Origin: Alphaproteobacteria bacterium
GTDB taxonomy: Bacteria > Pseudomonadota > Alphaproteobacteria > Micropepsales > Micropepsaceae
Assembly: GCA_003139615.1 (NCBI GenBank)
Contig: PLJH01000035.1
Span: 1 to 64,000, forward strand
Length of the DNA stretch: 64,000 nt
Direction: 5' to 3'
The notes under the pieces are model-generated. The model was not told the origin of the DNA and ran no database searches. It worked only from the letters and a program-made list of their open reading frames with translations. The position numbers and the translations under genes were made by a program. Positions 52,331-63,994 of this stretch are shown one piece after another (positions within the stretch are counted from its first letter, which is position 1; every line of letters starts with the position of its first letter).

Positions 52331-52798
52331 ATGACGAAGGAATTGGAGGGCGGCTGCGCTTGCGGCGCGGTGCGCTATCGGCTCAAAAGCGCGCCGATGT
52401 TCGTGCATTGCTGCCATTGTCACGACTGCCAGCGGCAGACGGGCTCGGCCTTCGTTCTCAATGCGCTGATCGAGGCGGACCGGGTCGAGGTTCTTTCGGG
52501 CGAAACCGTCCCCATTTCGATGCCGACCGACAGCGGCAAGCCCCATCTCATCTATCGCTGCCCCAAATGCCAGACGGCGATGTGGAGCGAATATGGCGGA
52601 CGCACCAAAGATCGCTTTGTGCGCGTCGGCACGCTCGACGATCCTGCGCAAATGCCGCCGGACGTACACATCTTCACGCGCTCGAAACTGCCCTGGGTGA
52701 AATTGCCCGAGGGCGTGCCGGCATTCGAAATCTATTACGAGACCAAGAAGCTGTGGCCCGCGGAAAGCCTCGAACGACGCCGCGCGCTTTCCGGATGA
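52331..52798 (+). CDS. GFA-family zinc protein (Mss4-like)
   Basis: A 155-residue protein of the glutathione-dependent formaldehyde-activating family. Metal ligands are Cys9 and Cys11 (CACG), the CHCHDCQRQTG cluster with Cys28, Cys30 and Cys33, and CPKC at 77-80. Family members bind two zinc ions and some catalyse formaldehyde-glutathione adduct formation, though most are uncharacterised. Start and stop overlap the following oppA fragment (ATGA). Confidence 0.88.
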   Translation: MTKELEGGCACGAVRYRLKSAPMFVHCCHCHDCQRQTGSAFVLNALIEADRVEVLSGETVPISMPTDSGKPHLIYRCPKCQTAMWSEYGGRTKDRFVRVGTLDDPAQMPPDVHIFTRSKLPWVKLPEGVPAFEIYYETKKLWPAESLERRRALSG

Positions 52799-54568: not shown

Positions 54569-55213
54569 CTATTTGCCGAGCAGCTTGAGAGCCCGGGATT
54601 TGATGATCGCGCGATCGGCAATGGCCAAGCACGCGCCATTGACGAGTTTCGTCACACGCGAGATGTCGTCGGCATCGGCCGCTTCGTTGATGTTGCGCGC
54701 GTGCCAAAAGGAGATCGTGGTTTGAACGGCCATCACGGGTTCCGAAACGAGATCGGGATCCTCGGTCAGGTGACGGGCCGGATCGCCAAGCGTCTTGTCG
54801 GCTGCATCGTAATTCGCGCGGCCTGTCAGGCAGAACAACCCGCGGCCGCGAAAGCGATACCCGTCCCCGCTCGCCTCGTCACCATTGCCGTTGATATTGG
54901 CATAGGCGGCGTTGCCCAGCGCCTCCGGATTCATCGCGAGCAGATCGGCCCGTGCCTTGAGCGGGGGCCATACGACGGCAATACGCGCCGCGCGATAGGA
55001 GAGGTCTTCCTCAAGCCGCCGGAACATCCATGTTTCCACGGCCGCCTGGGCAAGGAAGTGCGCCAGGCGAAGCGGCGTGTCGATCTGCGCAGCCGGAAGC
55101 CGATCGGCCAGGATGGGCGCAAACGCCTCGACCAGCCCCGGCGAAGCCTCGTTGCAGACAAGGGCTTGCAGGAACTTCGCGTCGATCACGGTAGGAGGCG
55201 GCGGATTGGCCAT
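54569..55213 (-). CDS. GH19-type phage endolysin
   Basis: A 214-residue glycoside hydrolase of the GH19/chitinase-like lysozyme group. FLAQAAVETWMF (Glu60) and LEEDLSYRA (Glu69) correspond to the HESGGF and ENLNYSA segments of phage endolysins, and GYRFRGRGLFCLTGRANY is the substrate-binding core. No signal peptide, so release needs a holin. The usual His before the first Glu is Val here. Its first residues MANPPPP are shared with the tail fibre at 61734-63281. Confidence 0.88.
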   Translation of the reverse strand: MANPPPPTVIDAKFLQALVCNEASPGLVEAFAPILADRLPAAQIDTPLRLAHFLAQAAVETWMFRRLEEDLSYRAARIAVVWPPLKARADLLAMNPEALGNAAYANINGNGDEASGDGYRFRGRGLFCLTGRANYDAADKTLGDPARHLTEDPDLVSEPVMAVQTTISFWHARNINEAADADDISRVTKLVNGACLAIADRAIIKSRALKLLGK

Positions 55214-55230
55214 GAAGGACTCCGGTGGTC

Positions 55231-55274
55231 AGACGACTAAGGGTTCGTGGTCAGGTCGCAGAAAATTTGATAGG
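55231..55274. repeat. shared leader repeat, copy 1
   Basis: This 44-bp stretch, from AGACGACT to ATAGG, matches 56694-56739 at 38 of 44 aligned bases with one 2-bp gap by hand alignment. It lies between the endolysin start and the sulfotransferase gene, so it may carry the divergent promoter. The best-conserved part is AGAAAATTTG. Confidence 0.65.
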
Positions 55275-55302
55275 CTCCGATGAATGTCCGGGCGGTGCGA
55301 AA

Positions 55303-55962
55303 ATGGTGTTTAACGACAAAGTTCTCTTCATCCATGTGCCGAAGACCGGCGGCATAGCGGTGACGAGATTTTTGATCGACAACACACGCGGAGACGTGAC
55401 CATCTCGGTTCCACCGGGTCACCCATCGGCAGGTCCCAAAGTGAAAGAGATAGCCGGAACGCGCCACGAGCGGCTGCATGAAGCTGCAGCCCTGTTGGCC
55501 ACACTCGGTCGAAAGCTCGAGGATTTCGAAACGATCGTCTCGATCGTGCGCAATCCCTACGATCTCGAAGTCTCCTATTATCATCAGAAGCAAAAGGCGA
55601 AGCCGTGGGAGCGTGGCCGCGCAAAAGAGCTTGCCATGGCCGGCGATTTCCTCGAGTTCGCGCGCCGCGCGCCTTTTAACTCACGCCTGCCGGTGCATAT
55701 CGAAGACTGGTACGAGATCGATGGCGTCGCGCCGGGCAATCTCCGGGTCTTGCGCTTCGAAAACATCGAACAGTAACTCTACGCGGCCGTAGGCCCGACA
55801 ATTCCGGTCTCCCGCAAGCTGCAAAAGCTCAATGTATCGAATCGGCCGCCTTACAGCGAATTTCTCTCTCCTGCGGTCGAGGAAGCCATCTATCGAAAAT
55901 ATCAGTGGGTTTTCGACCGTGGATTTTATCCGCGGGAATTCACGGCACGATCGCCGGCGTAA
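55303..55962 (+). pseudogene. sulfotransferase gene with a single nonsense codon
   Basis: The frame from ATG 55303 runs to a TAA at 55774-55776 (codon 158), then continues in the same frame without further stops to TAA 55960-55962, giving 219 codons, close to the intact paralogue at 63341 (217). The phosphosulfate loop VPKTGG and the 3'-phosphate motif RNPYDLEVS are intact. The paralogue has GAA (Glu) where this has TAA, so one G-to-T change explains the break. The C-terminal segment VEEAIYRKYQWVFDRGFYPR is preserved, so the damage is recent or the codon is read through. It converges by 23 bp on the next gene. Confidence 0.9.
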
Positions 55963-56680
55963 ACATGAGCGACGGGAAGGGAGCCTGAAACGACAAGATG
56001 TCGCTCACATAGTTCACCGAATTGCCCCATGATGGCGAGAACGCCAGAGAACTTTTTGACGTGACGATCTGCTCGCAAACGTTAATGGCGGGCACGGCGG
56101 TACCGGCAACCTTGTTCGAGTAGGAACCGTTGCACGCCTCCGAACCTAAATTGGCCGACGCAGCGAAAACCCCAAAAACTATCTCATTCGTGTTTTCAAG
56201 CGTTCCAGTGTTGACCGACGTGGCGCTCGTCGCGGCAGTCCCATTTGCGCTGTTGTTGTGCGTATCTAGCGGCGCCGTCTGGCTGGCGCCCGTGACGCAG
56301 GATGCACCGACCCTGCTCGTCACGGAGCCCGCAAAGGTCGCCGTGATGGTCCCGCCCACGGGCAAATTCGCACTCGTGTTCTTGGCATAGACAATTCCGA
56401 TGCCGATGCCGCTCCCGGCGATGTTGTCGATGGGAGTCTGGTAGGTATTTCCGGCGCTGTCCGTCACGGACGACGGCGCGTCCGATGTCGACTCGTAATT
56501 CGCCCACAAGATGATGAGGCTGCCGGCGGGACAAGCATTCGTTGTCGTCGTAAATGTGTTCGTCAGGGAGGCGGTCGCCAAGGTGCCGGAGTTGCCTAGG
56601 GTCACATACACCAGTCCCGCCTCGCACGGCGACGAAGCGATGGTCAGTGCGATGAACAGCCACGCGGCAAAGCTTTTCAT
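55940..56680 (-). CDS. secreted tail-type protein
   Basis: A 246-residue protein with a Sec signal peptide (MKSFAAWLFIALTIASSPCEA). The mature part is rich in Ser, Thr, Asn and Ala, with beta-type repeats and a few cysteines. It ends SLMFTPAIVP, nearly the same end as the Gly-rich protein at 57069. It belongs to the late tail cluster and may decorate or form part of the receptor-binding apparatus. Start ATG 56680 begins the signal peptide. No family recognised. Confidence 0.7.
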   Translation of the reverse strand: MKSFAAWLFIALTIASSPCEAGLVYVTLGNSGTLATASLTNTFTTTTNACPAGSLIILWANYESTSDAPSSVTDSAGNTYQTPIDNIAGSGIGIGIVYAKNTSANLPVGGTITATFAGSVTSRVGASCVTGASQTAPLDTHNNSANGTAATSATSVNTGTLENTNEIVFGVFAASANLGSEACNGSYSNKVAGTAVPAINVCEQIVTSKSSLAFSPSWGNSVNYVSDILSFQAPFPSLMFTPAIVP

Positions 56681-56693
56681 CCCGTTCCTCACC

Positions 56694-56739
56694 AGACGAC
56701 TGGGGTTGCGTGGTCACGTCGTAGAAAATTTGCTATAGG
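56694..56739. repeat. shared leader repeat, copy 2
   Basis: Second copy of the 44-46-bp leader found at 55231-55274. It directly precedes the degraded sulfotransferase remnant at 56777, as copy 1 precedes the sulfotransferase gene at 55303. It includes TGCTATAG, which also occurs at 63306-63313 before the intact sulfotransferase. Confidence 0.65.
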
Positions 56740-56776
56740 ATCGTGGCGGATCGCTAAAACGCACGTGAGTACTGTA

Positions 56777-56875
56777 ATGATGCGAAGGCTTTACATTCAT
56801 TGCGGTCTGACGAACTACCTCTACGGGCGCAACGTCGAACTTCGGGCGCTCGGCTACGACTACACGAGCATCTGA
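56777..56875 (+). pseudogene. N-terminal remnant of a sulfotransferase-like gene
   Basis: A 32-residue frame opening MMRRLYIHCGL. Many sulfotransferases begin LYIHxGLHKTGTT with the phosphosulfate loop next. Here that loop is missing and the frame goes straight to NYLYGRNVELRALGYDY, which resembles the helix after the loop. A possible C-terminal piece (GKEAKDRLYNLHYG) lies at 57034-57075 in another frame. It appears to be a deleted and scrambled gene. Confidence 0.45.
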
Positions 56876-56978
56876 ATTCCTTTTTTGTCCACCGGTCAGC
56901 AAAATTCGCCCGTCGGAACGCGTTTACCGAGGCGCCGGCATTCTTGAACAAGTGGCAATGGAATACGATATCGCGAAC
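56874..56978 (-). pseudogene. inverted sulfotransferase fragment
   Basis: On the minus strand, VRDIVFHCHLFKNAGASVNA followed by FRRANFADRW matches the start of a second sulfotransferase type, in which HCHLFKNAGTS is the phosphosulfate loop. It continues as Arg-rich noise, so only about 35 residues survive. It abuts the end of the plus-strand remnant at 56777-56875, as if inserted there inverted. Confidence 0.5.
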
Positions 56979-57068
56979 CTGCGTTGCAACTCCGTTTTCC
57001 TTGGACGATCGATGGGGCATTGGGTCACAAATTGGAAAAGAGGCGAAGGATCGACTCTACAACCTGCA

Positions 57069-57929
57069 TTATGGCGCAATTGCCGGCGTAAAAACAAATG
57101 GGTGAGAAATTCTCCACTGCGCGACGATGACACCTTGCGTGCCGGTTCCTGCTGTTCCGTTGTGATATGCGCCGCCGCCGCCTGCGCCATAAGCGCCGCC
57201 GTTTGCGCCACTCAGGTTTGTCGAAGGAGCACCCCCGCCACCACCGCCACCTTCACCAATTCCACCCGGTAAATCTGCTCCTGCCGCGCCGACAACGGCG
57301 GCCGAAGATGATGTCGCGCCGGCGCCACCGGACGCACCGCCCGATGCAGTTGCCCCGGCGCCGCCCCCGGAAGATGTTCCTGCTCCTGCCGTACCTCCAG
57401 GGGCCGCTCCTCCGCCGGCCCCCACAGCAAACCCACCTGCCCCGCCCGTTTCCGAGGCGTAAAGGACAGTGCCAGAATAGTTTGAGGCAGCGGTCCCTCC
57501 TGTACCTGCATCAAAACCGCCACCACCGGCAAAAGAACCCAGTGAAGCATTATTGACAGTGGTCCCATTGAACCATGTCGCTCCCGTACCACTTGGAGTG
57601 CCTCCACCGATTCCGACTTGATAGTCGATGGAGGCTCCGACAGTCAGAGCCAGATTCGTCTTATAAACGACAAAACCAGAAGCCCCGCCGCCGCTGCCTG
57701 TGGAGGCGATCCCAACCGCGCCGTTCCCGCCGCCGCCGATTGCATAGACGGTGTTGCTTGCCGAGTTCCACGTCGCCGGAACGGTCCACGTATTCCCCGT
57801 TCCGGTGAGCGTGAAAACGCACGTCTCGATATTACCCGCAGTCGTGCATGTCGGATCGGCTTGCGCCGTCCCGCAGAGGCCAAATAGAATCCCGAGAACG
57901 AGAACCAGTTTGCGCATTGTCGTGCTCAT
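57069..57929 (-). CDS. secreted glycine-rich tail-type protein
   Basis: A 286-residue protein with a signal peptide (MRKLVLVLGILFGLCGTAQA after a short lead). Residues about 70-265 are dominated by Gly, Ala and Ser with GGGG runs, like the polyglycine lattices of phage receptor-binding adhesins. It ends HPFVFTPAIAP, matching the end of the 55940 protein. Its ATG at 57929 overlaps the stop of the tail-spike gene (ATGA), so the two are coupled. No catalytic motif is visible. Confidence 0.7.
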   Translation of the reverse strand: MSTTMRKLVLVLGILFGLCGTAQADPTCTTAGNIETCVFTLTGTGNTWTVPATWNSASNTVYAIGGGGNGAVGIASTGSGGGASGFVVYKTNLALTVGASIDYQVGIGGGTPSGTGATWFNGTTVNNASLGSFAGGGGFDAGTGGTAASNYSGTVLYASETGGAGGFAVGAGGGAAPGGTAGAGTSSGGGAGATASGGASGGAGATSSSAAVVGAAGADLPGGIGEGGGGGGGAPSTNLSGANGGAYGAGGGGAYHNGTAGTGTQGVIVAQWRISHPFVFTPAIAP

Positions 57930-60900
57930 TGGTGGGCAAAGATGTTGTAGCCGGCGACGCTTCCCGTTGCGTCCGTCACACGCCAGACCATGATGGTGAA
58001 CAGATTTCCGTTTGTCGTCGTGAGCGCCGCGCCGGTGTTGGCTCCCACGGTGAAACCGCTGAACGCGATCGCACCGGCGCTCGCATTGTTACGCACCAGC
58101 AGGATGCAATTGCCGTCATTCGCAGGCGCCGTGATGGTGAATGCGCCGCCGTTGACGATGTATTGCTGGGGATTCTTGCCGCAGTCGACGGTGACGTTGC
58201 CGGTCGTGTTCGCGTAACTCGTTTCGTTCACGCCGCCGGATAGCGTCTGATCGGCAAGATTAAGTTCGCCGATTGTGCCGGTATTCGCGGGGAGTGTCGC
58301 CGCATAGTTGCTCGCTCCGGCATTCGCGCTTGTGAACGTCGTATAGCCCGTCGATGATCCCATAATCGCGAGATCGCTATTCGTAAACTTCTGCAGCGCG
58401 GTCCAAGTCTGCGCATCGCCGAGTTGTGCAATGCCGGAGAACGGAATGCCGCTGTCGCAGGCCGTCTTTCCCGTTGTATCGCAGAAGTCCGCCACGTCGG
58501 TTGCAACGGACGAGGACGGCCCGCGCATTTCGGAATTGTTGCTGACCCAGGGGCGGTAATTCCCTGCGCCGTCGACCGCAAAGGTCGCACGCCGCCCATA
58601 GGTGAGCACATATGTCGAGTTTCCGCCGATCGTGCCGCCGCCCGCCACGCTGAACGTGTCGGTCGCGCTCGCATCTTCGTTTTCGACGGTGATTTCGCTG
58701 CATGTGCCGTTTCCGGTCGGCAGCGTGTCCGTCATCGCAGAACCGGAATTCGACCGCATCTGATATTTGTTGCAGTCCGTCGTCGCCCAGACCTTGGCGT
58801 TGCCCGCAGTCACGCTTTGAACGGTTTGCGCGATTTCGAGATTGCCGCTCCCCGGATTGACGACGCTGTTGCCCGTATTCAACGGCGCTGCCGTTCCGAG
58901 TTGCGCCCATGTTCCCGCACCGCTCAAATAGGTTGTCGATGATGGCGTGCCGGTCGCATCGATTTGAGATGGGACCGCAATCGTGCCCGCCAGATTGGAA
59001 AACGCCAGCGGCTGCGACCAGCTCACCGTGCCCGGAGTGTGCATGAGCCCCGCGTTCCACACGGACGCCAGCACGATATGCGTGCTGTCGATCACGCTCT
59101 CGATGCCCCAGGTGCCGTTCGCGTCCGTGGGCGTGGCCGTCCCCGCATTGGGATTGATGCCGGACACCCATACGAAGCTGACCCCGGCCACCAATCCCGT
59201 CTCCGGCGCGCCCAGCGTCAACTCGACGAGGCCGCTATCGTCGGTCGCGGTGGCTGCGATCGGCGTCACGGCGACGCCCTGGGATTGCGCTGCAAGATTG
59301 CCTTGCACCACCACGCTGGGCTGCGGCAGCGCCGCGGGAATGCCGCCCATCCAGCCGCCGCTGCCATTGGCGTCCCACGGTACTCCGGAGGTGACGTGCG
59401 TGCCACCCGGCGCCGCGTCGACGCTGTACACGTTGAGGTTCTCGCCATTGGCCGCGGAGGAGCCCGCAACGCCGTTGGCCGCCATTTTCTCATTCGCTGC
59501 AAATGCGTCGGAATTCGCGACAAGATATTTCACCCGATTGCCCGCGCCGCTGGATGTCGACGTCACGGGAATGGCGATCGCGTTGCCACTGAGCAGCAAA
59601 CCGCCGGTGACATAGGTGTTGTAGCTGATCCCCAAAAGATCGCCGCCGCTGCCCACATTGCACGAAGGCGCCACGCTCAACGTGATCGTGTTGGGCGTGC
59701 CGGAGGTGTAGCTCATGATCGTCGTGCCGGGCGCGATGCAGGTGCTGTTCGTCAGGTCGGACACCACGGCCGTCGTCACTTGCGCGATGTTGGCGGGGAG
59801 CGCGCCCACCAGGTTGAGTGTGGCGCTGGAGGTGGATTCCGCGGCGGTGAAGCTGCCGCAGCCTTCCGGATAGAAGCTGTTCGCCAGCACCACATTGTTG
59901 CCGACGATCGTCACGGGGCCGGAAATATTTCCGTCGCAGACATTGTCCGTGTTGTTGACGCCTTCCACGGTGACGCTTTGTTTTTTGTAGACGGCGTAGG
60001 TCGTCGTGTCGCCGCTCGCCAGCGGCACCATCAGACGGCCGATATTGCGCGCGTCGCCGGAGATCGTGTTGCACGGGGTGGAGGCCTGCACATAGCAGCT
60101 CGTGCCGGGCGACGCGACATCGAGCGCCCAGCCCACGGCGCTGTTGATGCCTGTGGTGATGGCGATGTTCCCCGTGTCCGGCACGGAGGTCACATTGCTT
60201 TGGTTCAAATTCGTGTCGTCGAGTGCCAGGCTTGGTTGGGTCGGCGAGCCGATGAAGGCGCCGCCCGGACAATTGCCGCCGGCATATTGCTGCGACAATT
60301 GATAGGCATTCGCTTGCGCCGTTCCCGTCTGCATCGATTGGCCGGCGCTGGCGATCAGGCAGCCGAAGCCGATGCCCGTGGCATAGTTCTGGTCTTCGAA
60401 CACTTCGATCGCAGCCCCCGGCATCGTCTTGACATTGTCGACGCCGCCATTGTCGGTGGAAAGCCAGATCATGTTGCTGTAGGCGGGAACGCCGCAAGGG
60501 TGCGTATAATCGTTCGGCGCCGCGTAGCGATTGTCGCTGTAGTAGTAGCCTTTGCCGTTCTCCAGTCCGATGACGAAAATATGTTCGGCCGATTTGTTGC
60601 CCACCGTGCCGCCGCAATGCGAAGTCTGCAACGTGTCCTGGAATTCCACCGCGTTTCCTTCTCCAGGCTCCGGCGCGCCGGCGGGCTGGGCGTTCAGGTT
60701 GTATTGACCGCCCCAGATGTGATCCGTCGTCGAGTAGCCGAAATTGAAGCCGTTGCCGAAGATGACATAGCAGGACGGCTCGATCAGCGAATTGCGGGTG
60801 TCGGAATTGCCGTAAACGCTGTTCGGTACACCGGCGTTGGCCGCCGTGTTGTCGCTGAAACCCATGCAGGACGCCGTCGAGGTCGGCGGCGGGTTGGCGG

Positions 60901-61732
60901 TGTTCCAAGCGGGCAGCGTGTAGATGTCGCCAACGTGTTCGGTGCCGAAACTTTCGTCGAACGAAGGATTGAAGAACGTCGAGTCGGCAAACCAGCCCCA
61001 GGCCAGGTTGGTCGAAAACGCGCTGTGGCCGGAGATGCACTGCACCAGCGCATTGGCGCAATGCGAGCGGTCGAAATGCGCATTCTGCGCGCCGGAAAAG
61101 ATCACGCCGTAATTGAGCTTGCCGTTTGGGTTGACCTGCATGTCTTCGAAGCCAACGCCGGCGATGGCCGTCGTCGAGGCGTTGAGCCCCATCTCGAACA
61201 TGGCATTGAGCGAGCACGCGGTGCCGAGATTGGAAGCGAATACGGATTTGCGGCGGCCGTCGCCCTGGAAAAGGGGCTGAGTGTCGCGCGCGTCGAAACA
61301 GCCATTGTCCAGATAGACGCCTGCTGGAACGTGGATGCGCGTCAGGCCGCCATAGGCTTTGGCGTAGGCCAGCGCGTTGGCGATTACGGCGCTGTTGTCG
61401 TTTCCGTCAGTGAAGACGGGATCGAGAACGCCGCACATCGTCAGATCGATGGCGCTGGGGTCGGGAAGCCTGCGCACCCAAGTCCCGCCGCCGCTCGCCG
61501 CGAAGTTCACGCAGCCGTCCGGCGTGATCGTCGTCGCCGTGTAATCGAACTCGCCGCCGCCCAGCGAAGTTCCGCTCGCATAACTCTGGACGGCAACACG
61601 GCCGACAAGTGCAGGATTTGGGATTGCCTGGAGGGTCGTGGTGGTCGGACTGCTCTGGTAATACGGCGCAGCGGCGGCCGCGCTCGTGCCGAGCAACGCG
61701 ACGATCAATAGAATTCGTGCGATGATTTTCAT
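57926..61732 (-). CDS. tail spike with beta-helix domain and signal peptide
   Basis: A 1,268-residue protein. It opens with a Sec signal peptide (MKIIARILLIVALLGTSAAA). The stretch around residues 95-145 (VFTDGNDNSAVIANALAYAK and RIHVPAGVYLDNG) is the pectate-lyase-like start of a right-handed beta-helix, as in phage depolymerase spikes. Later parts hold repetitive beta-strands and a C-terminal NIFAHQ end. It probably binds or cuts host polysaccharide. The signal peptide is unusual for a virion protein. One base separates its ATG from the stop of the tail-fibre gene. Confidence 0.8.
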   Translation of the reverse strand: MKIIARILLIVALLGTSAAAAAPYYQSSPTTTTLQAIPNPALVGRVAVQSYASGTSLGGGEFDYTATTITPDGCVNFAASGGGTWVRRLPDPSAIDLTMCGVLDPVFTDGNDNSAVIANALAYAKAYGGLTRIHVPAGVYLDNGCFDARDTQPLFQGDGRRKSVFASNLGTACSLNAMFEMGLNASTTAIAGVGFEDMQVNPNGKLNYGVIFSGAQNAHFDRSHCANALVQCISGHSAFSTNLAWGWFADSTFFNPSFDESFGTEHVGDIYTLPAWNTANPPPTSTASCMGFSDNTAANAGVPNSVYGNSDTRNSLIEPSCYVIFGNGFNFGYSTTDHIWGGQYNLNAQPAGAPEPGEGNAVEFQDTLQTSHCGGTVGNKSAEHIFVIGLENGKGYYYSDNRYAAPNDYTHPCGVPAYSNMIWLSTDNGGVDNVKTMPGAAIEVFEDQNYATGIGFGCLIASAGQSMQTGTAQANAYQLSQQYAGGNCPGGAFIGSPTQPSLALDDTNLNQSNVTSVPDTGNIAITTGINSAVGWALDVASPGTSCYVQASTPCNTISGDARNIGRLMVPLASGDTTTYAVYKKQSVTVEGVNNTDNVCDGNISGPVTIVGNNVVLANSFYPEGCGSFTAAESTSSATLNLVGALPANIAQVTTAVVSDLTNSTCIAPGTTIMSYTSGTPNTITLSVAPSCNVGSGGDLLGISYNTYVTGGLLLSGNAIAIPVTSTSSGAGNRVKYLVANSDAFAANEKMAANGVAGSSAANGENLNVYSVDAAPGGTHVTSGVPWDANGSGGWMGGIPAALPQPSVVVQGNLAAQSQGVAVTPIAATATDDSGLVELTLGAPETGLVAGVSFVWVSGINPNAGTATPTDANGTWGIESVIDSTHIVLASVWNAGLMHTPGTVSWSQPLAFSNLAGTIAVPSQIDATGTPSSTTYLSGAGTWAQLGTAAPLNTGNSVVNPGSGNLEIAQTVQSVTAGNAKVWATTDCNKYQMRSNSGSAMTDTLPTGNGTCSEITVENEDASATDTFSVAGGGTIGGNSTYVLTYGRRATFAVDGAGNYRPWVSNNSEMRGPSSSVATDVADFCDTTGKTACDSGIPFSGIAQLGDAQTWTALQKFTNSDLAIMGSSTGYTTFTSANAGASNYAATLPANTGTIGELNLADQTLSGGVNETSYANTTGNVTVDCGKNPQQYIVNGGAFTITAPANDGNCILLVRNNASAGAIAFSGFTVGANTGAALTTTNGNLFTIMVWRVTDATGSVAGYNIFAHQ

Positions 61733-61733
61733 G

Positions 61734-63281
61734 TCAGCTCACTCGCGATCTGAGGGTTGTTCCGTTCGACGACACCCGGCGGCTGCCATTGATCTGTCCG
61801 GCCGCGGTGGCGGGCTGGATGATTTCGTCGATGATTGTGCTGCCGTCCGGACTGATGCCGACGGAATTATCGGTCAAGTCGACCTTCAGGATTTCGACGA
61901 CCTGGCTTCTGTTCGAAGCACCGAGCGACGGCGGAAATTCAATGATGACCGCCCCGGCCGTCGCATCCACTTCCAGCACCTGATCACCCGGCTGGACAGT
62001 GTAGGTCGATGCAGAAATCTGCTTGATGCCGAGAACGGCGCTTTGCGCAGGCTGGAACTCGACGAAATTGAGGGCGGTTGTGCCGAGGGTGATCTGGCTC
62101 GCCGCCAGCGGCAGCAAGAATGTGAGGAAGTTGTTCGTTGTGCCGCCCGACACATAGACCATGATGCCGGCAAGCTGGATTGCTGTATTCGCATCCGTCG
62201 CGCGCTGCAGAACCCATGGCGTCGATGTGCCGTTGGATTGCTGCGTCATCGCATAGATGCCGTTGTTTGCGGCATCGGTTTCATCGTCGACCAGAATGCG
62301 CATGCCCACCGTCGGCGAAACGCCGTCGATGGCACCCAACGCCGTTGTTGAAAGCCCGATCAGGACCTGATTGGCGGGGTCGTAATAATTGGTGGGAAGC
62401 GGGCCTGTCGTGGCGCACGCCACTGGGCCGCCCCTCGCATAATTGTAGGACAGAAAGGTGAGCGTGTTGATCTGGGTCTGAAGGGCGTTTTCTTCCGCTT
62501 CGGCGCGCGCGGTTTCTGCCGCATCGCCTGCGGCGCGCTCTCCCGCTTCCACTGCGATGTCTCCGAGCAACGTCGCGTCGTTTGCGGCTCGTGTGGTTGC
62601 TTCCGCCGCGATGCTGGTCCACAGCGCCGTATCGGCCGCGGCGCGGGTTGTGGCCTCGCCGGCAAGATTTGCGGCGAGCGCGGCATCCCCTGCTGCCCGG
62701 GCCGATGCCTCAGTCGAAATCGACATGCCGAGCGCGGTGTCGGCCGAAGCGCGTGTCGCCGCTTCCGTCGTGATGGCCGTCGAGAGCGATGCATCGGCCG
62801 CGGCGCGCGCCGTCGCTTCCGTGGTGATGGCTGTCGCATTGGTCGAGATCGAAGTCGCCTGCGATGCGAGTGTTGCCAGGATCGTGTTGAGGTTGGCCGA
62901 GCTGGAGAAAGTCGAGTTCACCGACCATGTCAGCGCGCCTGCCCCGCCGACAACGGGCGCATTTTGGATGGTAATTCCCGTCGCCGACACACAGAGGCCA
63001 TAGGATGCGACGGCGGAATTGACCGGATACCACGCCGCGGACCCGGGATCGAAATAGGCGTTGAAGGTCAGCCAGCCGTTATTCGAGGGGTCAGTCGCGA
63101 GAAACGAATCCGGCCCCACCCGCACCGAGACAATCTGCTGGACGTTCCCATTGCCGTCCTGAGCGACCAAATCCCCGGCCAACGCATTGAGCAGCGCCGT
63201 CGTAAGCGGATTGCCGTCGGAAAAACCGACGCGCGTGCCCATGGCAGGATAGGTCGCAGCGGGAGGTGGCGGATTGGCCAT
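61734..63281 (-). CDS. tail fibre with 18-residue repeat stalk
   Basis: A 515-residue protein opening MANPPPPAATYPAMGTRVGF. Residues 40-130 are beta-rich with a WYPV segment. Residues 152-259 consist of six 18-residue repeats (consensus IxxEAxxRAxxDxxL), a helical trimeric stalk. Residues 280-515 form a beta-rich tip typical of phage and YadA-like adhesins. No signal peptide, unlike the next three genes. It is the most upstream late gene in the window; more tail genes should follow beyond 64000. Confidence 0.82.
   Translation of the reverse strand: MANPPPPAATYPAMGTRVGFSDGNPLTTALLNALAGDLVAQDGNGNVQQIVSVRVGPDSFLATDPSNNGWLTFNAYFDPGSAAWYPVNSAVASYGLCVSATGITIQNAPVVGGAGALTWSVNSTFSSSANLNTILATLASQATSISTNATAITTEATARAAADASLSTAITTEAATRASADTALGMSISTEASARAAGDAALAANLAGEATTRAAADTALWTSIAAEATTRAANDATLLGDIAVEAGERAAGDAAETARAEAEENALQTQINTLTFLSYNYARGGPVACATTGPLPTNYYDPANQVLIGLSTTALGAIDGVSPTVGMRILVDDETDAANNGIYAMTQQSNGTSTPWVLQRATDANTAIQLAGIMVYVSGGTTNNFLTFLLPLAASQITLGTTALNFVEFQPAQSAVLGIKQISASTYTVQPGDQVLEVDATAGAVIIEFPPSLGASNRSQVVEILKVDLTDNSVGISPDGSTIIDEIIQPATAAGQINGSRRVSSNGTTLRSRVS
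62505..62828 (-). repeat. six tandem 54-bp repeats encoding the fibre stalk
   Basis: Six units of 18 codons (residues 152-259 of the tail fibre), each with the pattern IxxEAxxRAxxD. The unit is a multiple of three, so gain or loss of copies would change stalk length without a frameshift. Units differ at the DNA level, so the array is not newly amplified. Confidence 0.8.
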
Positions 63282-63340
63282 GAATGGCTCCTGTGGGAAT
63301 GGGTGTGCTATAGAACGGGCGGCTTAACCGGCGTTCGTCG

Positions 63341-63994
63341 ATGCTGTTCACCGACAAGATTCTGTTCATCCACGTCCCGAAAACGGCAGGCATGTCGATC
63401 ACGCGATTCATGATCGACAACATGCGCGGTGACGTGACGATTTCGATTCCGCACGGACACTCGCCGGGCGACCCGAGAATTCGTGAGATCGTGGGAATTC
63501 GTCACGAACGACTTCACGAAGCACAGAAATTGCTTACGACGTTGGGCCGGAAACTATCGGATTTCGAAGTCATCCTCTCCGTGATGCGCAATCCCTACGA
63601 TCTCGAAGTGTCCTATTATTTCCAGAAGCGAAAGCCCCTTGCGTGGGAACGTGGTCGCGCGAAAGAGCTTGCGATGACCGGCAACTTTCTGGAATTCGTG
63701 AAGCGTGCGCCGTTCAACAATCGCCTGCCGGTGCATATCGAGGACTGGTATCAGATCGACGGCGAAACCCCACCAAATTTGCGCGTCTTGCGCTTCGAAA
63801 ACATCGAACGCGAATTATGCGAAGCCATCGGGCCTCTGATGCCGATCGAACACAAGCTTGGAGTCCACAACGCGGCAGATCATGCGCCCTATAGAGAATT
63901 CCTGTCGCCTGAAGTCGAGGAAGCCATCTATCGAAAATACCAATGGATTTTCGACAACAACTTTTATCCGCGGGAATCATTTGCCGCTTCTTAA
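63341..63994 (+). CDS. sulfotransferase (intact)
   Basis: A 217-residue PAPS-dependent sulfotransferase-type protein. The 5'-phosphosulfate loop is VPKTAGMS at 12-19, and the 3'-phosphate motif RNPYDLEVS lies at 83-91. It would transfer sulfate to a carbohydrate or lipid acceptor, probably on the host envelope. It is paralogous to the broken copy at 55303; both face a minus-strand gene starting MANPPPP. No signal peptide. Expression from its own promoter, opposite to the late operon, would fit a lysogenic-conversion gene. Confidence 0.85.
   Translation: MLFTDKILFIHVPKTAGMSITRFMIDNMRGDVTISIPHGHSPGDPRIREIVGIRHERLHEAQKLLTTLGRKLSDFEVILSVMRNPYDLEVSYYFQKRKPLAWERGRAKELAMTGNFLEFVKRAPFNNRLPVHIEDWYQIDGETPPNLRVLRFENIERELCEAIGPLMPIEHKLGVHNAADHAPYREFLSPEVEEAIYRKYQWIFDNNFYPRESFAAS

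Follow-up and report, generated by a model that had tools for sequence, protein, structure and literature searches.

Why would a prophage keep sulfotransferase (ST) genes on the strand opposite to its tail operon, beside the genes for its fiber-type proteins? The question is raised by a window of 64,000 bases (bases 1-64000 of the 82,291-base contig PLJH01000035.1 from an alphaproteobacterium of the family Micropepsaceae), in which the initial annotation had placed three plus-strand ST loci within a minus-strand tail and lysis module. At a rough probability of 60%, we propose that the plus-strand STs are morons at a tail-fiber hot spot, where they are exchanged, and that they would be expressed in the lysogen as modifiers of the cell surface. 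We favor this reading because the genes are lower in GC content than their neighbors, because the ratio of nonsynonymous to synonymous substitution (dN/dS) is 0.20, and because enzyme genes at this place in related phages are inserted between conserved genes.

Two plus-strand sulfotransferase genes

The proposal concerns the following two genes.

63341-63994, plus strand: ST1, intact ST of 217 aa (phrog_3347), between the 3' end of the gene at contig 64009-65487 and the start of the gene at 61734-63281
55303-55962, plus strand: ST2, a homologue of ST1 with one in-frame TAA; its end overlaps the 3' end of the gene at 55940-56692

ST1 is an intact open reading frame (ORF), as first annotated, and its residues 6-201 of 217 match phrog_3347, "Galactose-3-O-sulfotransferase" (E 2.1e-8), a family that PHROGs classes among morons. 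Its Pfam scores for Sulfotransfer_1 (17.8 bits) and Sulfotransfer_2 (18 bits) both fall below the cut-off of 22, its matches to ST profiles from the PDB are weak (best E 0.0052), and NCBIfam gave no match; it is 24-27% identical to two proteins from plasmids that carry the annotation "sulfotransferase family 2" (E 4e-5 and 1e-7). ST2 does carry the nonsense codon originally reported and is 69.6% identical to ST1 in protein sequence over 214 codons. Its portion ahead of the stop has a match to phrog_3347 (E 1.6e-7) and scores 23.2 bits for Sulfotransfer_1, above the cut-off. Residues P13, K14, G17, R83, N84, P85 and S91 are invariant across ST1, ST2 and a chromosomal homologue from G003, a genome of the same genus, and presumably correspond to the 3'-phosphoadenosine-5'-phosphosulfate (PAPS)-binding motifs PKTxG, near the N-terminus, and R..P....S. 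Judged by sequence, ST1 and ST2 are ST-family proteins with putative PAPS-dependent activity. The same genome encodes an APS kinase (E 8.1e-70) that could supply PAPS, and one more Sulfotransfer_2 gene lies on another of its contigs.

Between ST1 and ST2, dN is 0.22 and dS is 1.13, giving the dN/dS of 0.20. The two genes have thus been under constraint during most of the time since they split, and a dS above 1 rules out a recent tandem duplication of one cassette. Diversifying selection, suggested in the initial annotation, is not supported by this ratio for the ST at codon level; turnover here consists of gene replacement and decay, not of fast codon change, and it is gene content that changes. 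The GC content of ST1 (52.7%) and ST2 (56%) differs from that of the neighboring genes (~62%), a property of morons according to PMC2920897, from which our moron criteria were taken.

The site after the tail-tip gene in related phages

Both genes lie inside a minus-strand phage module that extends from 52913 to the contig end, with small lysis-end genes first. Host-type genes, named from the look of their sequence except for the last, extend to a GFA-family gene at 52331-52798. Past the end of the window, profile matches identify a tail-tip-type protein at contig 65504-68212 (E 4.9e-58 to the tail-protein family phrog_1101), followed by minor tail, tail assembly, tape measure and head-tail connector proteins. 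Since the tail and lysis module is joined to host-type genes on one contig, the region is an integrated siphophage-type prophage; the lysis-end genes tested gave no profile match to an integrase, and the other prophage end lies off the contig. The placement of the loci in a tail and lysis module is thus upheld, and the endolysin and tail-protein profiles around the STs rule out a host island unrelated to the phage. ST1 is flanked by two fiber-type genes.

contig 64009-65487, minus strand: fiber-type gene whose 3' end adjoins ST1
61734-63281, minus strand: fiber-type gene (515 aa, starting MANPPPP), homologous to genes flanking the corresponding slot in loci L013, L014 and L033

Relatives of the tail-tip gene were gathered and the genes downstream of the tip were called; our own gene caller misses genes of unusual codon use, and gaps were therefore rescanned. 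E-values of these locus searches are relative to the candidates. In L013 and L014, sister phages with tail tips 74-75% identical and a MANPPPP-type gene next, an opposite-strand class I S-adenosylmethionine (SAM) methyltransferase gene stands directly after the tip. A prophage of the same genus (G003, contig C130) has an opposite-strand gene for a 313-aa PAP2_3 protein (E 3.6e-25) directly after a tail tip whose frame is interrupted. In L047, a Xanthobacteraceae metagenome-assembled genome, an opposite-strand methyltransferase (E 1.5e-10) follows the first fiber-type gene, the position that ST1 holds here, and in L096, an IMG/VR contig, the same position is taken by an opposite-strand fusion of a family 2 glycosyltransferase (GT2, E 1.3e-14) with Methyltransf_24 (E 6.4e-14). 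The slot genes of L013, L014, L047 and L096 are also lower in GC.

The slot is free in two other loci. In L033 a MANP-type gene directly follows the tip, and it is at this tip/MANPPPP junction that the L014 gene is inserted. L018, whose tip is 73.7% identical to that of L047, has 568 bases in which no gene was called, and of the two minus-strand ORFs there the longer gives no Pfam match; the fiber gene and the next gene are homologous between the two loci, and the L047 methyltransferase gene is thus inserted between genes that are adjacent in a relative. For ST1 itself, either a fiber gene arrived together with the ST or the relatives have lost that gene. The expectation that related phages would carry STs at the same tail position was not borne out in phage records or IMG/VR; what recurs at that position, in some relatives, is other surface-type enzymes.

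The search for close relatives with the MANPPPP gene returned three loci, and that with the G003-type tail tip returned one distant contig. At two places in G334 and in G102, relatives of the tail tip had no opposite-strand gene called directly after them. Tail-tip matches in 29 further genomes of the genus (best E-values between 3e-12 and 5e-26 per genome) were mostly frames of ~1000-1400 aa and resemble a gene-transfer-agent-type protein. In a related tail module of G334 (contig C140, L170), what looks from its sequence like the end of a PAP2 protein lies on the tail strand just upstream of an NlpC-type gene.

Frequency and kind of genes near the tail tip

A surface-type enzyme lies within 2 kb after the tip in at least 6 of the 101 loci that have at least 1 kb there, this locus included, a lower bound that rests on 25 of 54 families listed; the other loci showed no such enzyme within 2 kb among the matches listed. 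Farther out or without assignment are a glycosyltransferase ~4 kb after the tip in L049 and, in L041, an opposite-strand ORF 1.2 kb after the tip that is open at the contig end and has no Pfam match. The scan after the tip covered 75 opposite-strand ORFs in 100 loci, the present contig being left out, and among the matches listed were also DNA methylase (~1.9 kb after the tip in L052), ribonucleotide reductase, ImpB/MucB, glycosyl hydrolases, DnaJ, TIR and ThsA_Macro, short-chain dehydrogenase/KAS III and others. Part of these ORFs probably lie beyond the phage end. The TIR and ThsA_Macro genes form a Thoeris-type pair on the opposite strand of L120 (7973-9845), 2.6-4.5 kb after a related tip.

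The 4 kb on the other side of the tip contained 53 opposite-strand ORFs, whose only matches were to Gp49, AbiE, Fic, WYL and helix-turn-helix (HTH) families, all of toxin-antitoxin, Abi, Fic or regulator type. The contrast between cargo after and before the tip is suggestive, the numbers being small and partly non-independent.

A third locus and the upstream elements

The region 56777-57075 was initially annotated as a further, scrambled plus-strand ST. Its ST homology holds, in decayed form, and its strand does not: the homologous stretch is on the minus strand, and the plus strand has one short ORF.

56871-56978, minus strand: decayed N-terminal ST fragment of a different subfamily (family 2), found by tblastn against four plasmid records
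56780-56875, plus strand: 31-codon ORF, with no significant match in the searches made

The fragment is 47-56% identical to sequences in the four plasmid records (E 9e-6 to 1e-4), three of them annotated as sulfotransferase and one as hypothetical protein. Its N-terminal placement was checked in one of these records, where the annotated gene is matched from its codon 4 onward. There the plasmid homologue sits between glycosyltransferase and mannose-1-phosphate guanylyltransferase genes, and a family 2 homologue in G003 has neighbors that look from their sequences like glycosyltransferase- and epimerase-type genes. By homology, then, this region has received two or more types of ST, on both strands. 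Three plus-strand cassettes of one family are ruled out by this fragment, and the loci comprise two subfamilies.

Three plus-strand elements lie upstream of these loci.

55230-55277, plus strand: element ahead of ST2 that recurs at 56693-56742
56693-56742, plus strand: copy of the element upstream of the 31-codon ORF, holding TGCTATAG at 56731-56738
63306-63313, plus strand: TGCTATAG upstream of ST1, a possible -10 element located by sequence count

The first two are 82% identical over 50 bases (E 1.9e-6), with 25 of 30 bases identical against a best of 19 in 60 shuffles; ST1 does not have the element common to ST2 and the scrambled locus. TGCTATAG occurs twice in the window, where 0.17 would be expected, and two of 100 shuffles reach two occurrences. 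The motif GCTATAA stands upstream of the L013 methyltransferase. A terminator scan was at chance.

Neighboring genes

The remaining genes around ST2 and the third locus are as follows.

54569-55213, minus strand: endolysin, GH19-like (phrog_181, E 1.4e-53; Glyco_hydro_19, E 7.9e-6)
55940-56692, minus strand: 250-aa fiber-type gene, C-terminus ...FTPAIVP, no Pfam or PHROG match
57069-57929, minus strand: 286-aa glycine-rich fiber-type gene, C-terminus ...FTPAIAP, Gly_rich_2 below the cut-off
57926-61732, minus strand: 1268-aa spike/fiber-type gene with a signal-peptide-like start (heuristic), assigned from where it lies and how its sequence looks; neither Pfam nor PHROG gave a match

The large fiber-type genes have few or no matches to Pfam and PHROG profiles, and those without one were named from their position and the look of their sequence. 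The MANPPPP-encoding starts of the endolysin gene (55194-55228) and of the 515-aa fiber-type gene (63262-63296) are nearly identical (31 of 35 bases), and each directly adjoins one ST copy. Starts resembling Sec signal peptides were seen in four of five fiber/spike-type genes (57926-61732, 57069-57929 and 55940-56692 here; 4009-5595 in L007). By our home-made heuristic, such starts occur in 30 of 264 proteins of at least 150 aa after the tail tip and in 8 of 373 before it, and some of the former may be lysis or host proteins. Exported fiber-like proteins would be unusual. Opposite to the tail operon, three tandem plus-strand genes at contig 73712-75154 (L007 13712-15154) share similar zinc-ribbon-like CAYCLEEM/DM starts; Pfam zinc-ribbon matches were below the cut-off in both genes tested, and L033 has a related opposite-strand gene.

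Related sulfotransferases in bacterial genomes

Four of 100 relatives, this genome included, matched the ST, two of the others weakly. The best of the others is the chromosomal G003 gene, which is 53% identical, and among 385 genomes of the class only the present one matched at E 1e-10. The G003 gene (contig C181; L009 10721-12702) is adjacent to a divergent gene whose start resembles that of an ST and which has no Pfam match; a UDP-glucose dehydrogenase gene lies in the same stretch, and the nearest neighbor is ~1 kb away. The phage ST may have come from a chromosomal homologue of this kind.

Proposed mechanism and alternative explanations

As moron products, the STs could act as follows. The gene would be transcribed from its own start in the lysogen, and the enzyme would take sulfate from host PAPS and add it to a putative glycan or lipid of the host surface. 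Sulfation may then mask or change the receptor used by this phage or its competitors, leading to superinfection exclusion or to release without re-adsorption. The enzyme gene would be gained, replaced and lost beside the fiber genes because its advantage varies with the receptor being used. This suggests a specific and testable role for phage STs, namely lysogenic conversion in which sulfation alters the surface chemistry.

Several observations weigh against this proposal. A slot enzyme was seen in only 6 of the 101 loci, two of which are the sisters L013 and L014; other loci carry unrelated opposite-strand genes there (DNA methylase, ribonucleotide reductase, DnaJ, short-chain dehydrogenase/KAS III). 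With 64.4% GC against 62.3%, the PAP2 gene does not show the lowered GC content. Relatives of the ST1/ST2 family were found neither in phage records nor in IMG/VR, queried with one protein and then with an alignment. A sigma-70 promoter scan was at chance, the AlphaFold2 model of ST1 (predicted local distance difference test, pLDDT, 40.9) gave no usable fold, and the decay of ST2 and of the third locus indicates that loss is tolerated. This decay would also fit passenger genes from host glycan islands, retained by chance at an insertion-tolerant place and without phage function, as would the same-genus chromosomal homologue and the empty slot in many relatives. We consider that explanation unlikely, as the constraint seen over a dS of 1.13, part of it perhaps exerted within host genomes, and the fact that surface-type enzymes keep turning up in one slot both speak against it.

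The neighborhood could instead reflect enzyme and substrate, with the enzymes modifying the phage's own fiber or spike proteins. All intact cases directly adjoin fiber-type or tail-tip genes, and the glycosyltransferase-methyltransferase fusion could act on proteins. The genes are, however, opposite to the late genes and so probably not made together with virion proteins, the PAP2 protein is by family a lipid-phosphate-type enzyme, and the relatives of ST family 2 are in polysaccharide gene clusters; a target on the virion is accordingly quite improbable. A general site for defense or metabolic cargo, with the ST acting inside the cell on PAPS or a small molecule, for example, would accommodate the Thoeris-type pair of L120 and the DNA methylase of L052, but what methyltransferase, PAP2, glycosyltransferase and ST would better share is surface chemistry, and we regard this as very unlikely.

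A further reading can be put forward tentatively, although we doubt it: that the after-tip exchange site in alphaproteobacterial siphophages of this tail type trades a receptor-binding gene and an opposite-strand surface-modifying enzyme (ST, methyltransferase, PAP2 or glycosyltransferase-methyltransferase) as a matched pair, the enzyme rewriting the receptor read by the co-inherited fiber. Such pairing would give phage sulfotransferases a defined role.

Comparison with known systems

One close likeness is to the serotype-converting gtrABC clusters of P22, epsilon34, SfII, SfIV and SfV, also surface-type enzyme genes on temperate phages; the surface effect is here a prediction. These clusters modify the host surface polysaccharide in the lysogen, are mobile among phages and have a variable specificity gene (PMC2629481, PMC3851460). 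They add glucose via a lipid carrier, and in Shigella phages they adjoin int-attP (PMC3851460), whereas the present genes stand singly in the tail module and have predicted sulfation, methylation, PAP2 or glycosyltransferase-methyltransferase chemistries. If our proposal is true, the glucosylation paradigm extends to other chemistries and other bacteria.

In P22-like phages, the "ant moron" region separates the late operon from the receptor-binding gene; its cargo varies and is transcribed independently, and some members lack it (PMC2629481); beside the tailspike gene it contains antirepressor-type genes, and here the cargo is surface-type enzymes. Burkholderia prophages have moron hot spots, in which a single place flanked by conserved phage genes takes differing cargo (PMC2920897). 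One of these Burkholderia morons is a PAPS reductase of CysH type, while ST1 matches an ST family instead. STs have been reported in phages (PMC10580990, PMC11309003, PMC13299392, PMC8290583), among them PF13469 STs in OM43 and Synechococcus phages and one in a coral-associated prophage (PMC10580990, PMC11309003), and PMC10580990 calls their biological function unclear. With these (phrog_3347, PF13469) the genes described here have the ST domain in common and differ in their recurrent genomic place, which takes alternative enzymes. The searched literature, a single library, yielded no description of this slot. Morons, their hot spots and phage STs are thus already known from these sources, and what the present locus adds is an ST in a fiber-side slot that in related phages holds alternative enzymes.

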